This document shows, in pieces, positions 28,205-49,368 of a DNA stretch of 64,000 bases (within the stretch, counting starts at the first letter, position 1; each line of letters starts with the position of its first letter). The notes beneath the pieces were generated by a model, which saw nothing but the letters and a program-made list of their open reading frames with translations, searched no databases and was not told the origin of the DNA. This DNA is from Salegentibacter lacus. GTDB taxonomy: Bacteria > Bacteroidota > Bacteroidia > Flavobacteriales > Flavobacteriaceae. Both the position numbers and the translations under genes were made by a program. The stretch spans positions 1 to 64,000 of the forward strand of contig NZ_JAIQZB010000007.1 in NCBI RefSeq assembly GCF_020164555.1, given 5' to 3'.

Positions 28205-29278
28205 TTAATATTTTCTAAAAGCCTTTTCAAGCAATTTTATATAAGTTTCAATCCCCTCCTCTATTTCATTCACATAAATAAATTCATCTGCGGAATGCGA
28301 CCTGGTGGAATCACCGGGACCTAATTTTAAGGAAGGGCATTTCAGCATCGCCTGGTCTGAAAGCGTTGGTGAACCATAGGTTTCCATTCCTAACGCAATT
28401 CCAGCCTTAACCAGCTCGTGATCTGGAGGAATAGAAGACGAATTCAACCGAAGCGAACGGGCGGTAATTTCATCTACTGGCGCTCTTTCCTGAAGAATTT
28501 GATCAATTTCAGCATTCGAGTAAGCATCATTCACCCTAACATCGATTACCAGATCTACGTGACCCGGAACTACATTATGCTGGCTCCCGGCATTCATCTG
28601 GCTTACGGTAAGTTTTACTTTTCCCAAAGCTTCCGATTCCTTTGGAAAATCAAACTCCTCAAACCATTTTAAAACATCAGCGGTTTTATAGATTGCGTTG
28701 TTATCGTTGGGATGCGCGGCGTGTGAGGGAGTTCCCTTTACTTTTGCATCAAAAACCACCAGGCCTTTTTCGGCAATGGCCAGTTGCATTAAAGTGGGTT
28801 CGCCAACAATAGCTACATCAATTTTTGGCATTTTTGGCAACATACAGGCAATCCCGTTTTCCCCGTTAATTTCTTCTTCCCCGGTTCCGGCAAAAATCAG
28901 GTTATATTTCAGGTCTTTGGCTTCGTAATACCACGTAAAGGTTGCAAGTAAGGACACCAGGCAACCACCCGCATCATTGCTACCTAAACCATATAATTTT
29001 CCGTCCTCAATTTTAGCTTCAAAAGGATCTCGTGTGTAAGCTGAATTCGGTTTTACCGTATCATGATGGGAATTAAGCAGCAAGCTGGGTTTATCTGCAT
29101 CAAAATACTTACTGGTAGCCCATACATTATTTAAATGTCGAAAAAAAGTCATGTTCTTTTCTCTAAACCAGTCACCCAGCAAATCGGCCGTTTTAACTTC
29201 TTCTTTCGAAAAAGACTGGGTAGCAATAAGCTTTTTAAGTAATTCTATCGCATCATTTTGTAATTCTTCGAGCTTCAT
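28205..29278 (-). CDS. argE: M20-family deacylase of arginine synthesis (acyl-ornithine/acyl-citrulline hydrolase)
   Basis: A 357-residue metallopeptidase-family hydrolase. LLNSHHDTVKPN supplies the first metal His and Asp, GLGSNDAGGCLVSLL the bridging Asp, and GTGEEEINGENGI the catalytic Glu pair. In the carbamoyltransferase-on-acyl-ornithine route used by Bacteroidota, this step removes the acetyl or succinyl group after carbamoylation. That placement is inferred from the operon. Its start overlaps the argB stop by one base, which implies coupled translation. Confidence 0.88.
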   Translation of the reverse strand: MKLEELQNDAIELLKKLIATQSFSKEEVKTADLLGDWFREKNMTFFRHLNNVWATSKYFDADKPSLLLNSHHDTVKPNSAYTRDPFEAKIEDGKLYGLGSNDAGGCLVSLLATFTWYYEAKDLKYNLIFAGTGEEEINGENGIACMLPKMPKIDVAIVGEPTLMQLAIAEKGLVVFDAKVKGTPSHAAHPNDNNAIYKTADVLKWFEEFDFPKESEALGKVKLTVSQMNAGSQHNVVPGHVDLVIDVRVNDAYSNAEIDQILQERAPVDEITARSLRLNSSSIPPDHELVKAGIALGMETYGSPTLSDQAMLKCPSLKLGPGDSTRSHSADEFIYVNEIEEGIETYIKLLEKAFRKY

Positions 29279-45612: not shown

Positions 45613-46245
45613 TTACAACAACAAAATTCTATGTTTAATGGCAAAAAGTACAAGGCCGGTTCGGCTTCTTACGTTTAGTTTTTGAAACAAACTCTCGCGG
45701 TATCCGTCTATGGTTTTTGGACTTAGGTTCATCTCGTTGGCTACCTCTTTGTACGTCATTTCAGTACAGGCGTGGCCAAGAAATTCTATTTCGCGTTTGG
45801 TTAGATGGGTGAATTTATTCTCTTTATTCCGGTTTTTAATGGCTTCAGAAACCGCATCGGTATAGAAAAAACCTTCTTTTATCACTTCATCTAAAGCAAA
45901 CTTAAACTCGTCGGGATCTATATCTTTCAGTAAATAGCCGCGGCAACCGAGTTTCACCATAAAAGTGATGGTTTCCTCATCGTCTTCCATAGTAAGTGCC
46001 AGCACTTTTTGATTGGAATGGTTTTCCTTAAGCCAGGCCATAGTTTCGGGCCCGTCCATAATAGGCATTCTAATATCCAGCAAGACCAAATCGGGTTTTG
46101 GCTGATTGGCTTTAAATTTATCTACCAGTTCCCGTCCGTTTTTGTAAATTCCGTAAACCTCATAATTTTCAAAAGAATTTACTAGGTTTTTTAAAGATTG
46201 CGCAAATAAAGTGTGATCGTCTACAATTGCTACGGTATTATTCAT
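45613..46245 (-). CDS. LuxR/NarL-family response regulator
   Basis: A 210-residue transcription regulator. The receiver domain has the acidic pair VDDH (Asp 9-10), the phospho-acceptor Asp 57 in LVLLDIRMP and the conserved Lys in YLLKDI. The C-terminal LuxR helix-turn-helix is [44 protein letters not shown]. It overlaps the kinase gene upstream by 8 bp and is its likely partner. Target genes are not evident. Confidence 0.94.
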
Positions 46246-47026
46246 CTTGTTGCCCCATTAAAGAATAGCGTAAAGATAAAAAAGTTCCTTTGCCCATAGC
46301 ACTTTCCAGCTTAAACTTTGTTTGTATTAAGGCTGCCCTGCTTTCCATATTAAATAATCCTGAATTCTTCTGTACTTCTTCCAAATCAAATCCCTGCCCG
46401 TTATCTTTAGCGGTAATAATGATTTCTTCGGAAGTAAACTCAATGCGAACAATTAACGCTGAAGCCTTCGCGTGCTTTATCACGTTAGAAAAGAACTCCT
46501 GAAGGATCCTGAATAAAATAATGCTGTGTTGTTGCGGAATTTCCTGTTTTTCGCCGGTAATTTCCAGTTGGGCTTCAATAACCCCCATTCGCTGAAACCT
46601 TGCCAGTTCATTTTCTACGGAAACCACCAAACCGGCATAACCAATAACCTGGTTGTTTAAAGATTTTGAAAGCGAGCGCACTTCCTGAAGCGAACTGGCC
46701 ACGGTTTCTTTAATTTCCAAAACTGAAGTTTTCTCGGCCTCAGGCAGGTTTTTTGAAAAGATATTTAGCTGCATGTTAGCCACGGAAAGTAACTGACCAA
46801 TATTATCGTGCAACTCCCAGCCCACGTTTTTTAGGGTTTGTTCCTGCATTTCTAAACGCGATTGGGAAATTTCGCGCTCAAAACGCTTTTCGGCTTCAAA
46901 TTGTTCCAGTAACATTTTATTTTTGCGTCTTTGGTACACTATAAAAAAAACGATCACAAAAGCCGTTAGCAGCAGGATCACTACCACAAAGTAGATGATA
47001 AGTAAGAGTTCTTCTTTAGAAAGCAT
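46238..47026 (-). CDS. HisKA_3-type sensor histidine kinase
   Basis: A 262-residue kinase with one N-terminal membrane helix (about residues 7-31) and almost no outside domain. [18 protein letters not shown] holds the phospho-acceptor His 73; the ATP-binding part shows [12 protein letters not shown] (N box) and AKDNGQGFD (G box). It lacks its own sensor domain, so the signal may come from the membrane protein encoded directly upstream, with which it overlaps by 11 bp. Confidence 0.92.
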
Positions 47027-47732
47027 TTTTTAAATTCTTAGTAGAAGTTTTTTTCTTGTTGGCCAGCAATAAAAAGGCAATACTATAGGAACTATACATA
47101 AAAATATTCATTGCAATCATAATCAAACTGCTGAACTCCACAAATTCCGGACTTTTATCATTAAAATATTCAAAATAAATGAAAATAGGGCTAGTAGTTA
47201 GAAAATATAGAAGCGCCGCAAAGGAAATATAAAAACTGATTTCCCTTTTTACATTCAAAATTTTAGGACTCAGCAGAATTTCAAAATAATAGTAGAAAAT
47301 TACCCCTAAAAGAAAAAAACTTCCCAATAAATAAGTAACCACTGAATTACTCTTAAAAAATACATCTGAAAATATTAAATTGGCAATACAGATTATAACA
47401 TATAAAATCAAGCAATGATTGATAATCCGCCTTATTTTTTTATTTGAAATATTCCAGGTAAAGTATAGAATATAAATCACAAAACTGATAATCAAATAAG
47501 GATTATATAACCAATAAGTTCTGTACAAAAAAGTTTGCTTTAGAAAATGTAATTCTTCATTCCAGTAGATTGCAGCCGGAAATAATCCTATACTTTCAAC
47601 AAAGAATGTTAGCAATAGAAAATACGAAAAAAACCCAACCGCTTTATCGGCTGGGTTTTTCTGGTAAAAATATAAGCCGCATATGGCCGCAATACCCTCA
47701 AGTAAAAATACCAGGAATCTAAAATCTTGCAT
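47016..47732 (-). CDS. multi-pass membrane protein of the two-component operon
   Basis: A 238-residue protein with about seven hydrophobic helices and short loops; I recognise no named family. It overlaps the kinase gene by 11 bp and touches the gene upstream at one base, so all four are one operon. Because the kinase is nearly all cytoplasmic, this protein could be its sensory partner. The architecture recalls seven-helix sensor modules found fused to kinases, here as a separate chain. That role is inference. Confidence 0.65.
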   Translation of the reverse strand: MQDFRFLVFLLEGIAAICGLYFYQKNPADKAVGFFSYFLLLTFFVESIGLFPAAIYWNEELHFLKQTFLYRTYWLYNPYLIISFVIYILYFTWNISNKKIRRIINHCLILYVIICIANLIFSDVFFKSNSVVTYLLGSFFLLGVIFYYYFEILLSPKILNVKREISFYISFAALLYFLTTSPIFIYFEYFNDKSPEFVEFSSLIMIAMNIFMYSSYSIAFLLLANKKKTSTKNLKNAF

Positions 47733-48118
47733 TAATATTCCATTGGAGGCCAGCCCGAGCCAATTGTATTATATGGCTCAATTTCATAATTATTAGGGTC
47801 AGAGTCTTCCTCTGCATTTTCCGTATCACCCTTAGCTTCTTTGGTTGGAGAGAGAAACATGGTAGTATAGCTTTTTTTCTCATTGGTTTTAGGATAAGCT
47901 CCTAAATAAAACCTAATTCCCGGTTTTTCTACTCCCTGCTCCTTAGATTTCTCCTTTACATAATCCAGGTATTCCTGCAATTCGTCCACGCTGTACCAGA
48001 ATTCGCGGGTATCTTCATAACCCTCGGCTTCCCTAATATCTTTTCCCCTGGTTCTTACCCATTCATCTTGTTCTTTACGCGCCTCTTCTACGCTAATGCA
48101 CTTTTTTGGTTTTTTCAT
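47732..48118 (-). CDS. conserved hypothetical protein, first gene of two-component operon
   Basis: A 128-residue soluble, highly charged protein. The first part (KKCISVEEARKEQDEWVRTRGKDI) is helical; the centre has FYLGAYP; the tail is acidic and ends in NTIGSGWPPMEY. I recognise no family. It shares a base with the downstream membrane-protein gene, so translation is probably coupled. Function unknown. Confidence 0.6.
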   Translation of the reverse strand: MKKPKKCISVEEARKEQDEWVRTRGKDIREAEGYEDTREFWYSVDELQEYLDYVKEKSKEQGVEKPGIRFYLGAYPKTNEKKSYTTMFLSPTKEAKGDTENAEEDSDPNNYEIEPYNTIGSGWPPMEY

Positions 48119-48307
48119 TTGTTTTAGTTGGTTGGTTAAAAACTTAATTTTTTGTTAAGGTAAATTTAGGAGAATTTTTTTGTTTGGCAAATGTTTCCGG
48201 TTCTCGGTTCTCAGTTGTGAGTTTTCTGTTTTTGGTTATCATTTATTGGTTCTTTCTCGGTTGAACTAGATTACAAGTTCCCACGAATACAAGAATATTT
48301 TTTGTTT

Positions 48308-48388
48308 CGTCATTGCGAGGCGGCGTTAGCCGATGTGGCAATCTGTTCTGGATGAGTTCTCGGATGTCAGTCGCAACACGAAATGACG
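48308..48388. repeat. intergenic repeat CGTCATTGCGAGG...AATGACG
   Basis: Bounded by CGTCATT and AATGACG, containing GGCGGCGTTAGCCGATGTGGCAATCTG. It is akin to the ATTGCGAAG...GCAATCT copies at 13113. It generates a short spurious reading frame on the minus strand. Confidence 0.65.
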
Positions 48389-48536
48389 GGAACTCTAAAC
48401 AAAAGATCGCCGCACTCGTTCCTCGTTCGCGAAGACGATAACAAGATACCGACTGAAGTCGGGATAATTCGATCAGCATTTTGAATACGCCTTCAGCTTT
48501 TAAAAAATCCGATCTCATCAAAAGGGGGTTTTTCCC

Positions 48537-48568
48537 CTTGTAGCAAGTCTACTAATCTTCTACTTTTG
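48537..48568 (+). promoter_or_regulatory. promoter of candidate sRNA copy 1
   Basis: CTTG (48537-48540), 20 bp, then TACTTTTG (48561-48568), a full match to the Bacteroidota -7 box TAnnTTTG with a -33 TTG. An AAGGGG/CCCCTT palindrome (about 48522-48539) overlaps the -33 box and could be an operator. All this is preserved in copy 2. Confidence 0.7.
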
Positions 48569-48574
48569 ATATTG

Positions 48575-48685
48575 TCATTTTAGTTAGCTAAAATGTTTTG
48601 GGGCAAAAAAGTGTCGTCAGTGGTGTGAAGTCTGATTGGTAGGGTAATCAGATTTTTCGTAAACCTAGACGGCACTTTTTTATTT
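48575..48685 (+). ncRNA. candidate structured small RNA, copy 1
   Basis: About 110 nt. The 5' end folds as CATTTTAG/CTAAAATG around TTAG (48576-48595). Then AAAAAAGTGTCGTC (48605-48618) pairs with GACGGCACTTTTTT (48668-48681) through 14 pairs with one G-U, ending in a T-run as an intrinsic terminator. Inside, TCTGATT/AATCAGA make a hairpin with loop GGTAGGGT. No ORF of note. The promoter, body and terminator are in register. I cannot match it to a known RNA family. Confidence 0.65.
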
Positions 48686-49023
48686 TAGTGAACCTGTGTT
48701 TTAAAAAGGCCATTGGCCGAATTTAAAATATTAGGGCGAACTAATCCCGATTTTATATCGAGATCTTTCTACCTAAATACATTTCAAATCTCATTTTCAT
48801 CTAATTGGACAGCTTTCTCTAAATTTTATTCGAAGAACCATTTTATCATTTAACAATTTAGATTTCAGAAAAGAATTTAACACCGGATCTAAAATGTTCT
48901 GAAGCTTAGAAACAGCTTAGCGTACCAGGAAATCCCTACTGATGTCGGTATAATTCGATTAGTATTTTTTAATTCGCCTTCGTCTTTTTAAAAATGAGAT
49001 CTCATCAAAAGGGGATTTTTCCC

Positions 49024-49055
49024 CTTGTAGCAAGTCTACTAATCTTCTACTTTTG
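49024..49055 (+). promoter_or_regulatory. promoter of candidate sRNA copy 2
   Basis: CTTG (49024-49027), 20 bp, TACTTTTG (49048-49055), identical to copy 1. The AAGGGG/CCCCTT palindrome over the -33 box is kept although its loop differs by one base. Confidence 0.7.
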
Positions 49056-49061
49056 ATATTG

Positions 49062-49172
49062 TCATTTTAGTTAGCTAAAATGTTTTGGGGCAAAAAAGTG
49101 TCGTCAGTGGTGAGAAACCTGATTGGTAGGGTAATCAGATTTCTCGTAAACCTAGACGGCACTTTTTTATTT
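49062..49172 (+). ncRNA. candidate structured small RNA, copy 2
   Basis: Same fold as copy 1: CATTTTAG/CTAAAATG (49063-49082), outer stem 49092-49105 with 49155-49168, T-run end. Four of the five core differences from copy 1 fall in the inner hairpin arms: three turn a G-U or mismatch into a normal pair and one breaks a pair. That pattern favours a folded RNA over neutral spacer. Confidence 0.65.
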
Positions 49173-49368
49173 TAGTGAGCCTATATTTTAAAAGGCCTCT
49201 GGCGGAATTTAAGGATCAAGCCCAATTGTTGTGGAATAGGTAAAAATTGTCGTTAATCTATACAGTAAGAATTCTATATTTTTCACTCCTCTAAACTGAC
49301 TTCTAAAGGCTTTAATTTTGGCATTAAAAGATTCTGAAACAAGTTAAGAATGACGTTCTAAGGAATGA

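Follow-up and report, generated by a model that had tools for sequence, protein, structure and literature searches.

What is encoded by two nearly identical tandem sequences in a gene-poor tract of the Salegentibacter lacus genome, and what might control them? The window analysed here is a 64,000-nucleotide stretch (contig NZ_JAIQZB010000007.1, positions 1 to 64,000). An initial annotation of it, made from the sequence alone, had proposed two tandem copies of a small RNA gene.

The tandem copies in the window

Both copies are present, at 48479-48706 and 48966-49193, and are 93% identical over 228 nt; the core, for which about 97% identity had been claimed, was 97% identical over 185 nt. The tract between the flanking genes runs from 48119 to 49368, consistent with the 1.25-kb gene desert described initially, and the single listed ORF of at least 60 aa inside it has 92 aa. 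Every element attributed to the copies was found in each of them: a promoter of the form TTG-20 nt-TACTTTTG, a palindrome over the -33 box (AAAGGGG-N6-CCCCTTG), a 5' hairpin (CATTTTAG-TTAG-CTAAAATG), a 14-bp closing stem with a T-run at its end and an inner hairpin with GGTAGGGT. A re-check of the core gave the same count of five differences, four of them in the inner hairpin. Our reading of the predicted folds of both copies agreed that three of the changes improve pairing, and one inner-hairpin change (TC to CC) breaks a pair. Only the window copies matched over most of the query when the organism's own genome was searched; the remaining 21 matches were short, with E above 0.9. The features of the two copies are as follows.

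48574-48684, plus strand: RNA copy 1 (start deduced from the position of the -7 box; end in the T-run; fold z -6.1; covariance-model match 48574-48690)
49061-49171, plus strand: RNA copy 2 (fold z -5.9; covariance-model match 49061-49177)
48576-48595, plus strand: 5' hairpin, copy 1 (fold and covariation)
49063-49082, plus strand: 5' hairpin, copy 2 (fold and covariation)
48596-48604, plus strand: G-rich linker UUUUGGGGC, copy 1 (38 of 42 distinct copies retain it)
49083-49091, plus strand: G-rich linker UUUUGGGGC, copy 2 (copy comparison)
48605-48681, plus strand: closing stem (48605-48618 with 48668-48681) and inner stem, copy 1 (T-run end, terminator-like)
49092-49168, plus strand: closing stem (49092-49105 with 49155-49168) and inner stem, copy 2 (T-run end)
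48639-48644, plus strand: GUAGGG hexaloop, copy 1 (in 42 of 42 distinct copies)
49126-49131, plus strand: GUAGGG hexaloop, copy 2 (copy comparison)

The gene-poor tract also holds a GTCATTGCGAGG-type palindromic repeat at 48307-48390, which we take to be perhaps a REP-like element. Short GCC/GGC hairpins in opposite orientation flank copy 1 (48485-48505 and 48700-48725), and the same flanks occur at copy 2 and around the RNA copies of several Salegentibacter relatives. These hairpins might have aided duplication of the RNA copies.

Relatives, fold and coding capacity

The initial annotation could place the RNA in no known family, and none of 4227 Rfam families scored above its curated gathering threshold on the window; below the thresholds there were weak matches alone. 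6S-Flavo (RF01685), a flavobacterial RNA of similar length (model of 108 positions), was rejected as its identity: the Rfam scan of the window gave no 6S-Flavo match at the RNA locus, and the genome has a separate 94-bit match on another contig. All 14 other genomes of the genus carry the RNA in one or two copies each, with best E per genome from 2.7e-65 to 1.2e-10, while among the other 84 genomes of the same search seven had short weak matches (E 3.7e-5 or worse). The covariance-model search suggested at the outset was performed on 299 family genomes with a model built from 20 copies, and revealed relatives in three further genera (E 3.1e-15 to 3.7e-8); outside the genus the RNA is present in Christiangramia, Zunongwangia and Gillisia. 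Removing one reverse-strand self match and seven repeats under double locus identifiers from 51 model matches left 43 tabulated copies, of which 42 are distinct; alignment A3 contains three more that lie outside this table, two from G009 and one from G014. Scanning named genomes with a pattern located 32 loci: two, in Riflebacteria and Sulfurovum, had no model match and were taken as chance, and the others are in Salegentibacter, Christiangramia/Gramella, Zunongwangia and Gillisia. Weak model matches were seen in G139, plus one more in G152. The G139 locus (L066, E 0.0017) was rejected as the same RNA: it is a different short RNA-like transcript of another genus, with UUUGGGGC, UUUGGGGCAAAAAAG and a terminator, and the palindrome is absent from the 75 nt upstream. 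Neither this RNA nor its operator was found among the listed matches in open-licence papers, and the open-licence literature searched held nothing on a small RNA in Salegentibacter.

Both window copies were predicted to fold far more stably than shuffled sequences (-39.3 kcal/mol for copy 1 and -40.6 for copy 2, against shuffled means of -20.2 and -22.2), corresponding to z scores of -6.1 and -5.9, and for each copy none of 200 shuffles was as good. When 20 copies were aligned, 98.8% of cells paired, as compared with 41-53% when slid, and eight pairs showed changes in both partners; shuffles averaged 3.3, and none of 500 was as high. The number of further pair types was less decisive (22 against 19.4, with 19 of 500 shuffles as high), while RNAalifold found double changes in 9 of 35 pairs of the same alignment. 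Homologues whose changes ignore the stems had been named initially as evidence against an RNA; instead, the covariation among the 20 copies indicates that changes follow the stems.

Printed folds contained the closing and inner stems in all 42 distinct copies, while the 5' hairpin was absent from one (L023) and shortened in another (L110_7039). The closing stem, registered by hand across these copies, gave a weaker signal: it was 65.6% paired as compared with 60.2% after shuffling (highest shuffle 63.9%) and showed 23 pair types against a shuffle average of 20.9, with shuffles reaching up to 26; its ten outermost positions were paired in every copy and mostly invariant. Around GUAGGG, positions 1 and 2 of the inner stem were paired in 42 of 42 copies and positions 7 to 13 in 39 to 42, with T-A to G-C and C-G to G-C exchanges, and positions 3 to 6 (paired in 17 to 24 of 42) form an internal loop in the Christiangramia type. 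The GUAGGG hexaloop itself was kept in every distinct copy and the linker UUUUGGGGC in 38.

Two other explanations of the repeats can be weighed against this evidence. The transcript might be a short mRNA for a peptide starting MFWGKKV, since ATG/GTG TTT TGG GGC AAA AAA GTG is readable in most copies and the frame of copy 2 is open for 31 codons. However, the frame varies in length among the 42 distinct copies: two stop after 2 codons, one after 4 and 26 after 11-16, twelve are longer or open, and one has no such start; residues after KKV differ between genera, and the changes follow the stems. We regard a peptide gene as very improbable, and slightly more so the view that a mobile element accounts for the repeats, as its ends or as its passengers. 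The tandem arrangement, with the short GCC/GGC hairpins and the GTCATTGCGAGG-type repeat nearby, is what such an element might leave, but the syntenic position is fixed throughout the clade, the genome has two copies only, there was no plasmid match and no phage match better than E 0.6, and the same RNA pattern gave no match in viral contigs. The locus instead has, by its sequence, the marks of a structured trans-acting sRNA: its own promoter, a terminator-like end, covarying structure and no conserved ORF. We conclude that the copies almost certainly specify a conserved structured RNA, in keeping with the self-contained, folded plus-strand molecule of about 110 nt put forward initially.

The adjoining operon and the proposed operator

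The initial annotation recognized the RNA but not its relatives, the operator or the two-component operon alongside. The RNA sits between carboxyltransferase-domain genes (CT_A_B, CT_C_D, then LamB_YcsF) and the following operon, and RNA and operon share this locus throughout the clade.

47732-48118, minus strand: F1, a 128-aa protein with a variable C-terminal tail ending PPxxY (family and structure search)
47016-47732, minus strand: F0, a 238-aa protein modelled with seven long helices, predicted 7-TM (structure model)
46238-47026, minus strand: histidine kinase with HisKA_3 and HATPase_c (Pfam)
45613-46245, minus strand: response regulator with receiver and GerE domains (NarL/LuxR type; Pfam), the proposed RNA activator

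In searches of Pfam and NCBIfam, F1 had no match at E up to 1 and F0 had none over the cut-off. Mean pLDDT was 88.8 for the F0 model and 78.4 for that of F1, whose fold gave no PDB match at E <= 0.001. F0 likewise had no PDB match at E <= 0.001, and its best, to a GPCR at 0.029, was not taken as homology.

Operon genes were present in the fetched locus of 39 copies (four of the 43 could not be judged); in 36 of these the RNA and the operon are on opposite strands, and in three Salegentibacter genomes the RNA is on the strand of F1. Several Christiangramia loci have an F1-F0 neighbour for each RNA. This is not so in Salegentibacter, and the window, with two RNAs and one F1-F0 pair, is a case against a strict match of copy number. 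At two loci most of the operon has gone. In L064 (G152) the regulator is the sole operon gene beside operator and RNA, with F1, F0 and kinase gone from the locus; in L111 (Zunongwangia pacifica) regulator, operator and RNA stay, F1 and F0 are gone, and a 116-residue kinase-like match is left. The missing parts could sit elsewhere in those genomes.

Of 249 family genomes, 155 contain an F1 relative. Among the 27 best-scoring out-of-clade F1 loci, which were those fetched, an F0 match was present in 27 and a kinase match in 26. In 21 of the 27, the 400 nt upstream of F1 contain GG[AT]5-6CC boxes (40 sites, as compared with 2.98 for shuffled sequence and 6 for a control segment); a point against a common operator is that no box of this type was seen near the F1 start in the window. 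Across nine Salegentibacter F1 proteins, hand-picked with the more divergent L083, L093:5727 and L101:5814 left out, the last 13 residues were on average 57.7% identical, as compared with 86.4% for the 93-residue core, in which the least conserved 13-residue window reached 71%. Window F1 has no visible export signal. Some F1 relatives (L137, L101:5814-6305) start with a hydrophobic, signal-like stretch and others do not. One F0-type ORF of Salegentibacter flavus (L101:4149-5333) has 394 aa, the usual length being about 240 aa.

The promoters of the RNA copies have a regular layout.

48522-48539, strand not assigned: 18-bp palindrome AAGGGG-N6-CCCCTT of copy 1, proposed response-regulator operator, overlapping -33 (motif scans)
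49009-49026, strand not assigned: 18-bp palindrome AAGGGG-N6-CCCCTT of copy 2, proposed operator (motif scans)
48561-48568, plus strand: -7 element TACTTTTG, copy 1 (23 nt after CCCC)
49048-49055, plus strand: -7 element TACTTTTG, copy 2 (motif scans)

The distance from the end of the palindrome to the -7 box is 23 nt in 43 of 43 copies, despite varying spacer sequence, and the box ends in TTTG in 42 and TTTA in one. Many Christiangramia copies have lost the TTG after CCCC and kept the palindrome, which fits an activator-dependent promoter; a point against the proposed operator is that the palindrome centre is 5 or 7 nt in a few copies. When 15 genomes of the genus were scanned with AAGGGGNNTTTTTCCCCTTG, allowing up to one mismatch, all 19 matches were RNA promoters. 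AAGGGG-N6-CCCCTT was present in 14 of the 15, at RNA promoters and, in nine genomes, at a second orthologous site; points against its specificity are three other occurrences in G001, where there is no micropeptide of the kind described below, and nine matches of the reversed control in the 15 genomes. With the 23-nt spacing included and up to one mismatch allowed, the pattern was found in 18 of 18 clade genomes, at 65 places as compared with 4 for the reversed control. The composite palindrome-N23-TANNTTTG gave, after removal of overlapping duplicates, 41 distinct sites in 31 of 397 genomes, 15 of them in clade genomes; the reversed pattern gave 3. Eight of 18 clade genomes share a one-mismatch composite site of nearly identical sequence, GGGGAGCTTTCCCC...TATGTATG (for example G000:C74:87626-87670), and its conservation looks like that of coding sequence. 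Taken with the position of the regulator gene, this geometry suggests that the neighbouring response regulator is likely to control the RNAs, by binding the palindrome.

Possible further outputs, a proposed circuit and known systems

Operator and 23-nt spacing also precede a single-TM peptide frame of about 34-37 aa in 14 of 18 clade genomes. In the S. lacus genome (L147, contig C63) the composite site is at 29138-29182, and the neighbours are an Asp_protease_2 gene and a 2-oxoacid dehydrogenase acyltransferase gene. The frame is shifted in G010, and no such second operator site was found in G005, G007 (61% complete) and G163. The membrane micropeptide, of about 36 aa, is a likely second output of the same regulator. 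Pairing of the RNA with its mRNA was rejected: at -19.6 kcal/mol, against a shuffled mean of -24.6, it was weaker than in shuffles.

Outside the clade, 25 composite-site loci were examined. The site precedes a predicted short transcript beside a class II tRNA-synthetase gene (Pfam tRNA-synt_2), presumably asnS and so labelled here, in nine of them; the other 16, many of which may be chance, count against a general link. An MMPL-type exporter gene lies on the other side at eight of the nine asnS loci, and seven of the nine candidates contain GTAGGTTTGGGG. Their scaffold differs from that of the clade RNA, and GUAGG/UUUGGGG words are common to both. A search of 397 genomes with GTAGGTTTGGGGNAA gave 25 matches in 24 genomes, as compared with 10 for the reversed control. 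Eleven of the 25 were at the asnS locus, and six of these were sites that had supplied the motif GUAGGUUUGGGG; six of the nine asnS loci with a composite site are therefore not independent, and the main reading does not depend on that number. At the five new asnS loci the strict pattern found no composite site and a looser one (spacing 23 or 24) found three, against none at 14 matches elsewhere (Fisher p 0.01). Rfam gave nothing on 12 asnS-type loci. Composite site and G-rich words together point to a second candidate sRNA that differs in scaffold and seems to have the same promoter geometry; as a lead, it is weaker than the clade RNA. Candidates of this type, often with GUAGGUUUGGGG and a composite operator, are L211-L214, L217, L218, L222, L225 and L226, and also L235, L236, L239, L240 and L246. 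At L215 and L216, from two species of one genus, a composite site precedes a 120-aa ORF starting MRK.LKIRL, a possible further regulon member.

Structure, conservation, synteny and operator geometry are the observed parts from which we infer that the tandem non-coding regulatory RNAs are probably the dedicated output of the adjacent signalling operon; transcription, binding, direction and mode of action are read from sequence. The sensor-like 7-TM protein F0, with its small partner F1, would govern the histidine kinase, which would phosphorylate the NarL-type response regulator. The regulator would then bind AAGGGG-N6-CCCCTT, sit over -33 and activate an otherwise weak promoter, the micropeptide gene elsewhere being a likely second output through the same promoter. 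Two G-rich words that the fold leaves exposed, the hexaloop GUAGGG and the linker UUUUGGGGC, may be the parts by which the RNA acts in trans, and pairing with C-rich mRNA stretches seems likelier than capture of an RNA-binding protein. If pairing is the mode, mRNAs with CCCUAC or GCCCCAAAA sites would be its targets. Against the proposal, the loop complement TTACCCTACC had eight matches in the genome, six of them outside the RNA itself and none in a 5' leader; the reversed control had 16.

The palindrome could be owned by another regulator. An unrelated repressor or activator would then bind it, and the two-component operon would be a bystander kept by synteny beside a real RNA. The window itself, with no box seen near the F1 start, would suit this account, as would the out-of-clade asnS-linked RNAs, which are not beside the operon and have no match to its families there. 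It is nevertheless unlikely: boxes of the same type precede the operon at 21 of 27 other loci, and regulator, operator and RNA are still together in L111 and L064, where the other three genes have gone from the locus. A further rival concerns the mode of action alone: the RNA might sequester an RNA-binding protein, in the way that RsmY/Z act on RsmA. The RNA occurs in multiple copies and has two conserved, short, single-stranded G-rich words, and the asnS-linked candidates have similar words in another scaffold, which makes a decoy plausible, albeit less probable than pairing; the hexaloop equally resembles a pairing seed. With the regulator of the operon retained as activator, a broader and speculative proposal is a Flavobacteriaceae signalling system of new make. 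F1 would be a self-made peptide signal or ligand for a 7-TM receptor, and kinase and regulator would relay it. Its outputs would be a feedback membrane micropeptide and G-rich sRNAs, which in the Salegentibacter clade are tandem and linked to the operon and elsewhere are linked to asnS. The variable F1 tail is no more than suggestive of such a signal; were it one, the system would be a Bacteroidota counterpart of agr-RNAIII.

Circuits that join a two-component system to sRNAs of its own have been studied in depth in Proteobacteria and Firmicutes; in Bacteroidota they are, to our knowledge, little known. The locus supplies an RNA family, a fixed-geometry operator and an adjoining candidate regulator, and leads to a second candidate member of the regulon and perhaps to a relative shared across the family. 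With these in hand the proposed circuit is directly testable, and an output is suggested for a widespread, uncharacterized operon.

GacA, like the regulator here, is of NarL/LuxR type. The GacA-RsmY/RsmZ system of Pseudomonas also resembles this locus in having several redundant sRNAs and an 18-bp N6 palindrome, which in passages of PMC4950607 is TGTAAG-N6-CTTACA at -75 and -196, whereas here the operator is AAGGGG-N6-CCCCTT, differs from the GacA UAS in sequence and overlaps -33. Here, in addition, kinase and regulator adjoin the RNA, and the hexaloop is GUAGGG, with no shown GGA/CsrA link. The LisRK regulator of Listeria belongs to a different class from the one described here. All five LhrC1-5 sRNA copies need that one system, according to PMC4132741, and a multicopy sRNA tied to one two-component system is what we propose here. 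LhrC sites are CU-rich, whereas those of this RNA are G-rich. The agr-RNAIII locus of Staphylococcus has a divergent gene layout, and here too the RNA would mostly be read away from the sensor operon. RNAIII is described in passages of PMC9266662 as a regulatory RNA and the main effector of agr signalling. Unlike the RNA here, RNAIII has 514 nt and encodes a peptide, and F1 and F0 have no AgrD/AgrB family match in Pfam or NCBIfam. Rfp18 of Flavobacterium psychrophilum is, like this RNA, a structured sRNA conserved in a flavobacterial genus (PMC9723704), but the passages of that paper mention neither an operator nor a regulator. PMC5399024 describes a Riemerella system, in its passages a BaeS/OmpR pair, which was rejected as a counterpart. 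By analogy, our best reading likens the circuit proposed here to GacA-RsmY/Z or LisRK-LhrC.
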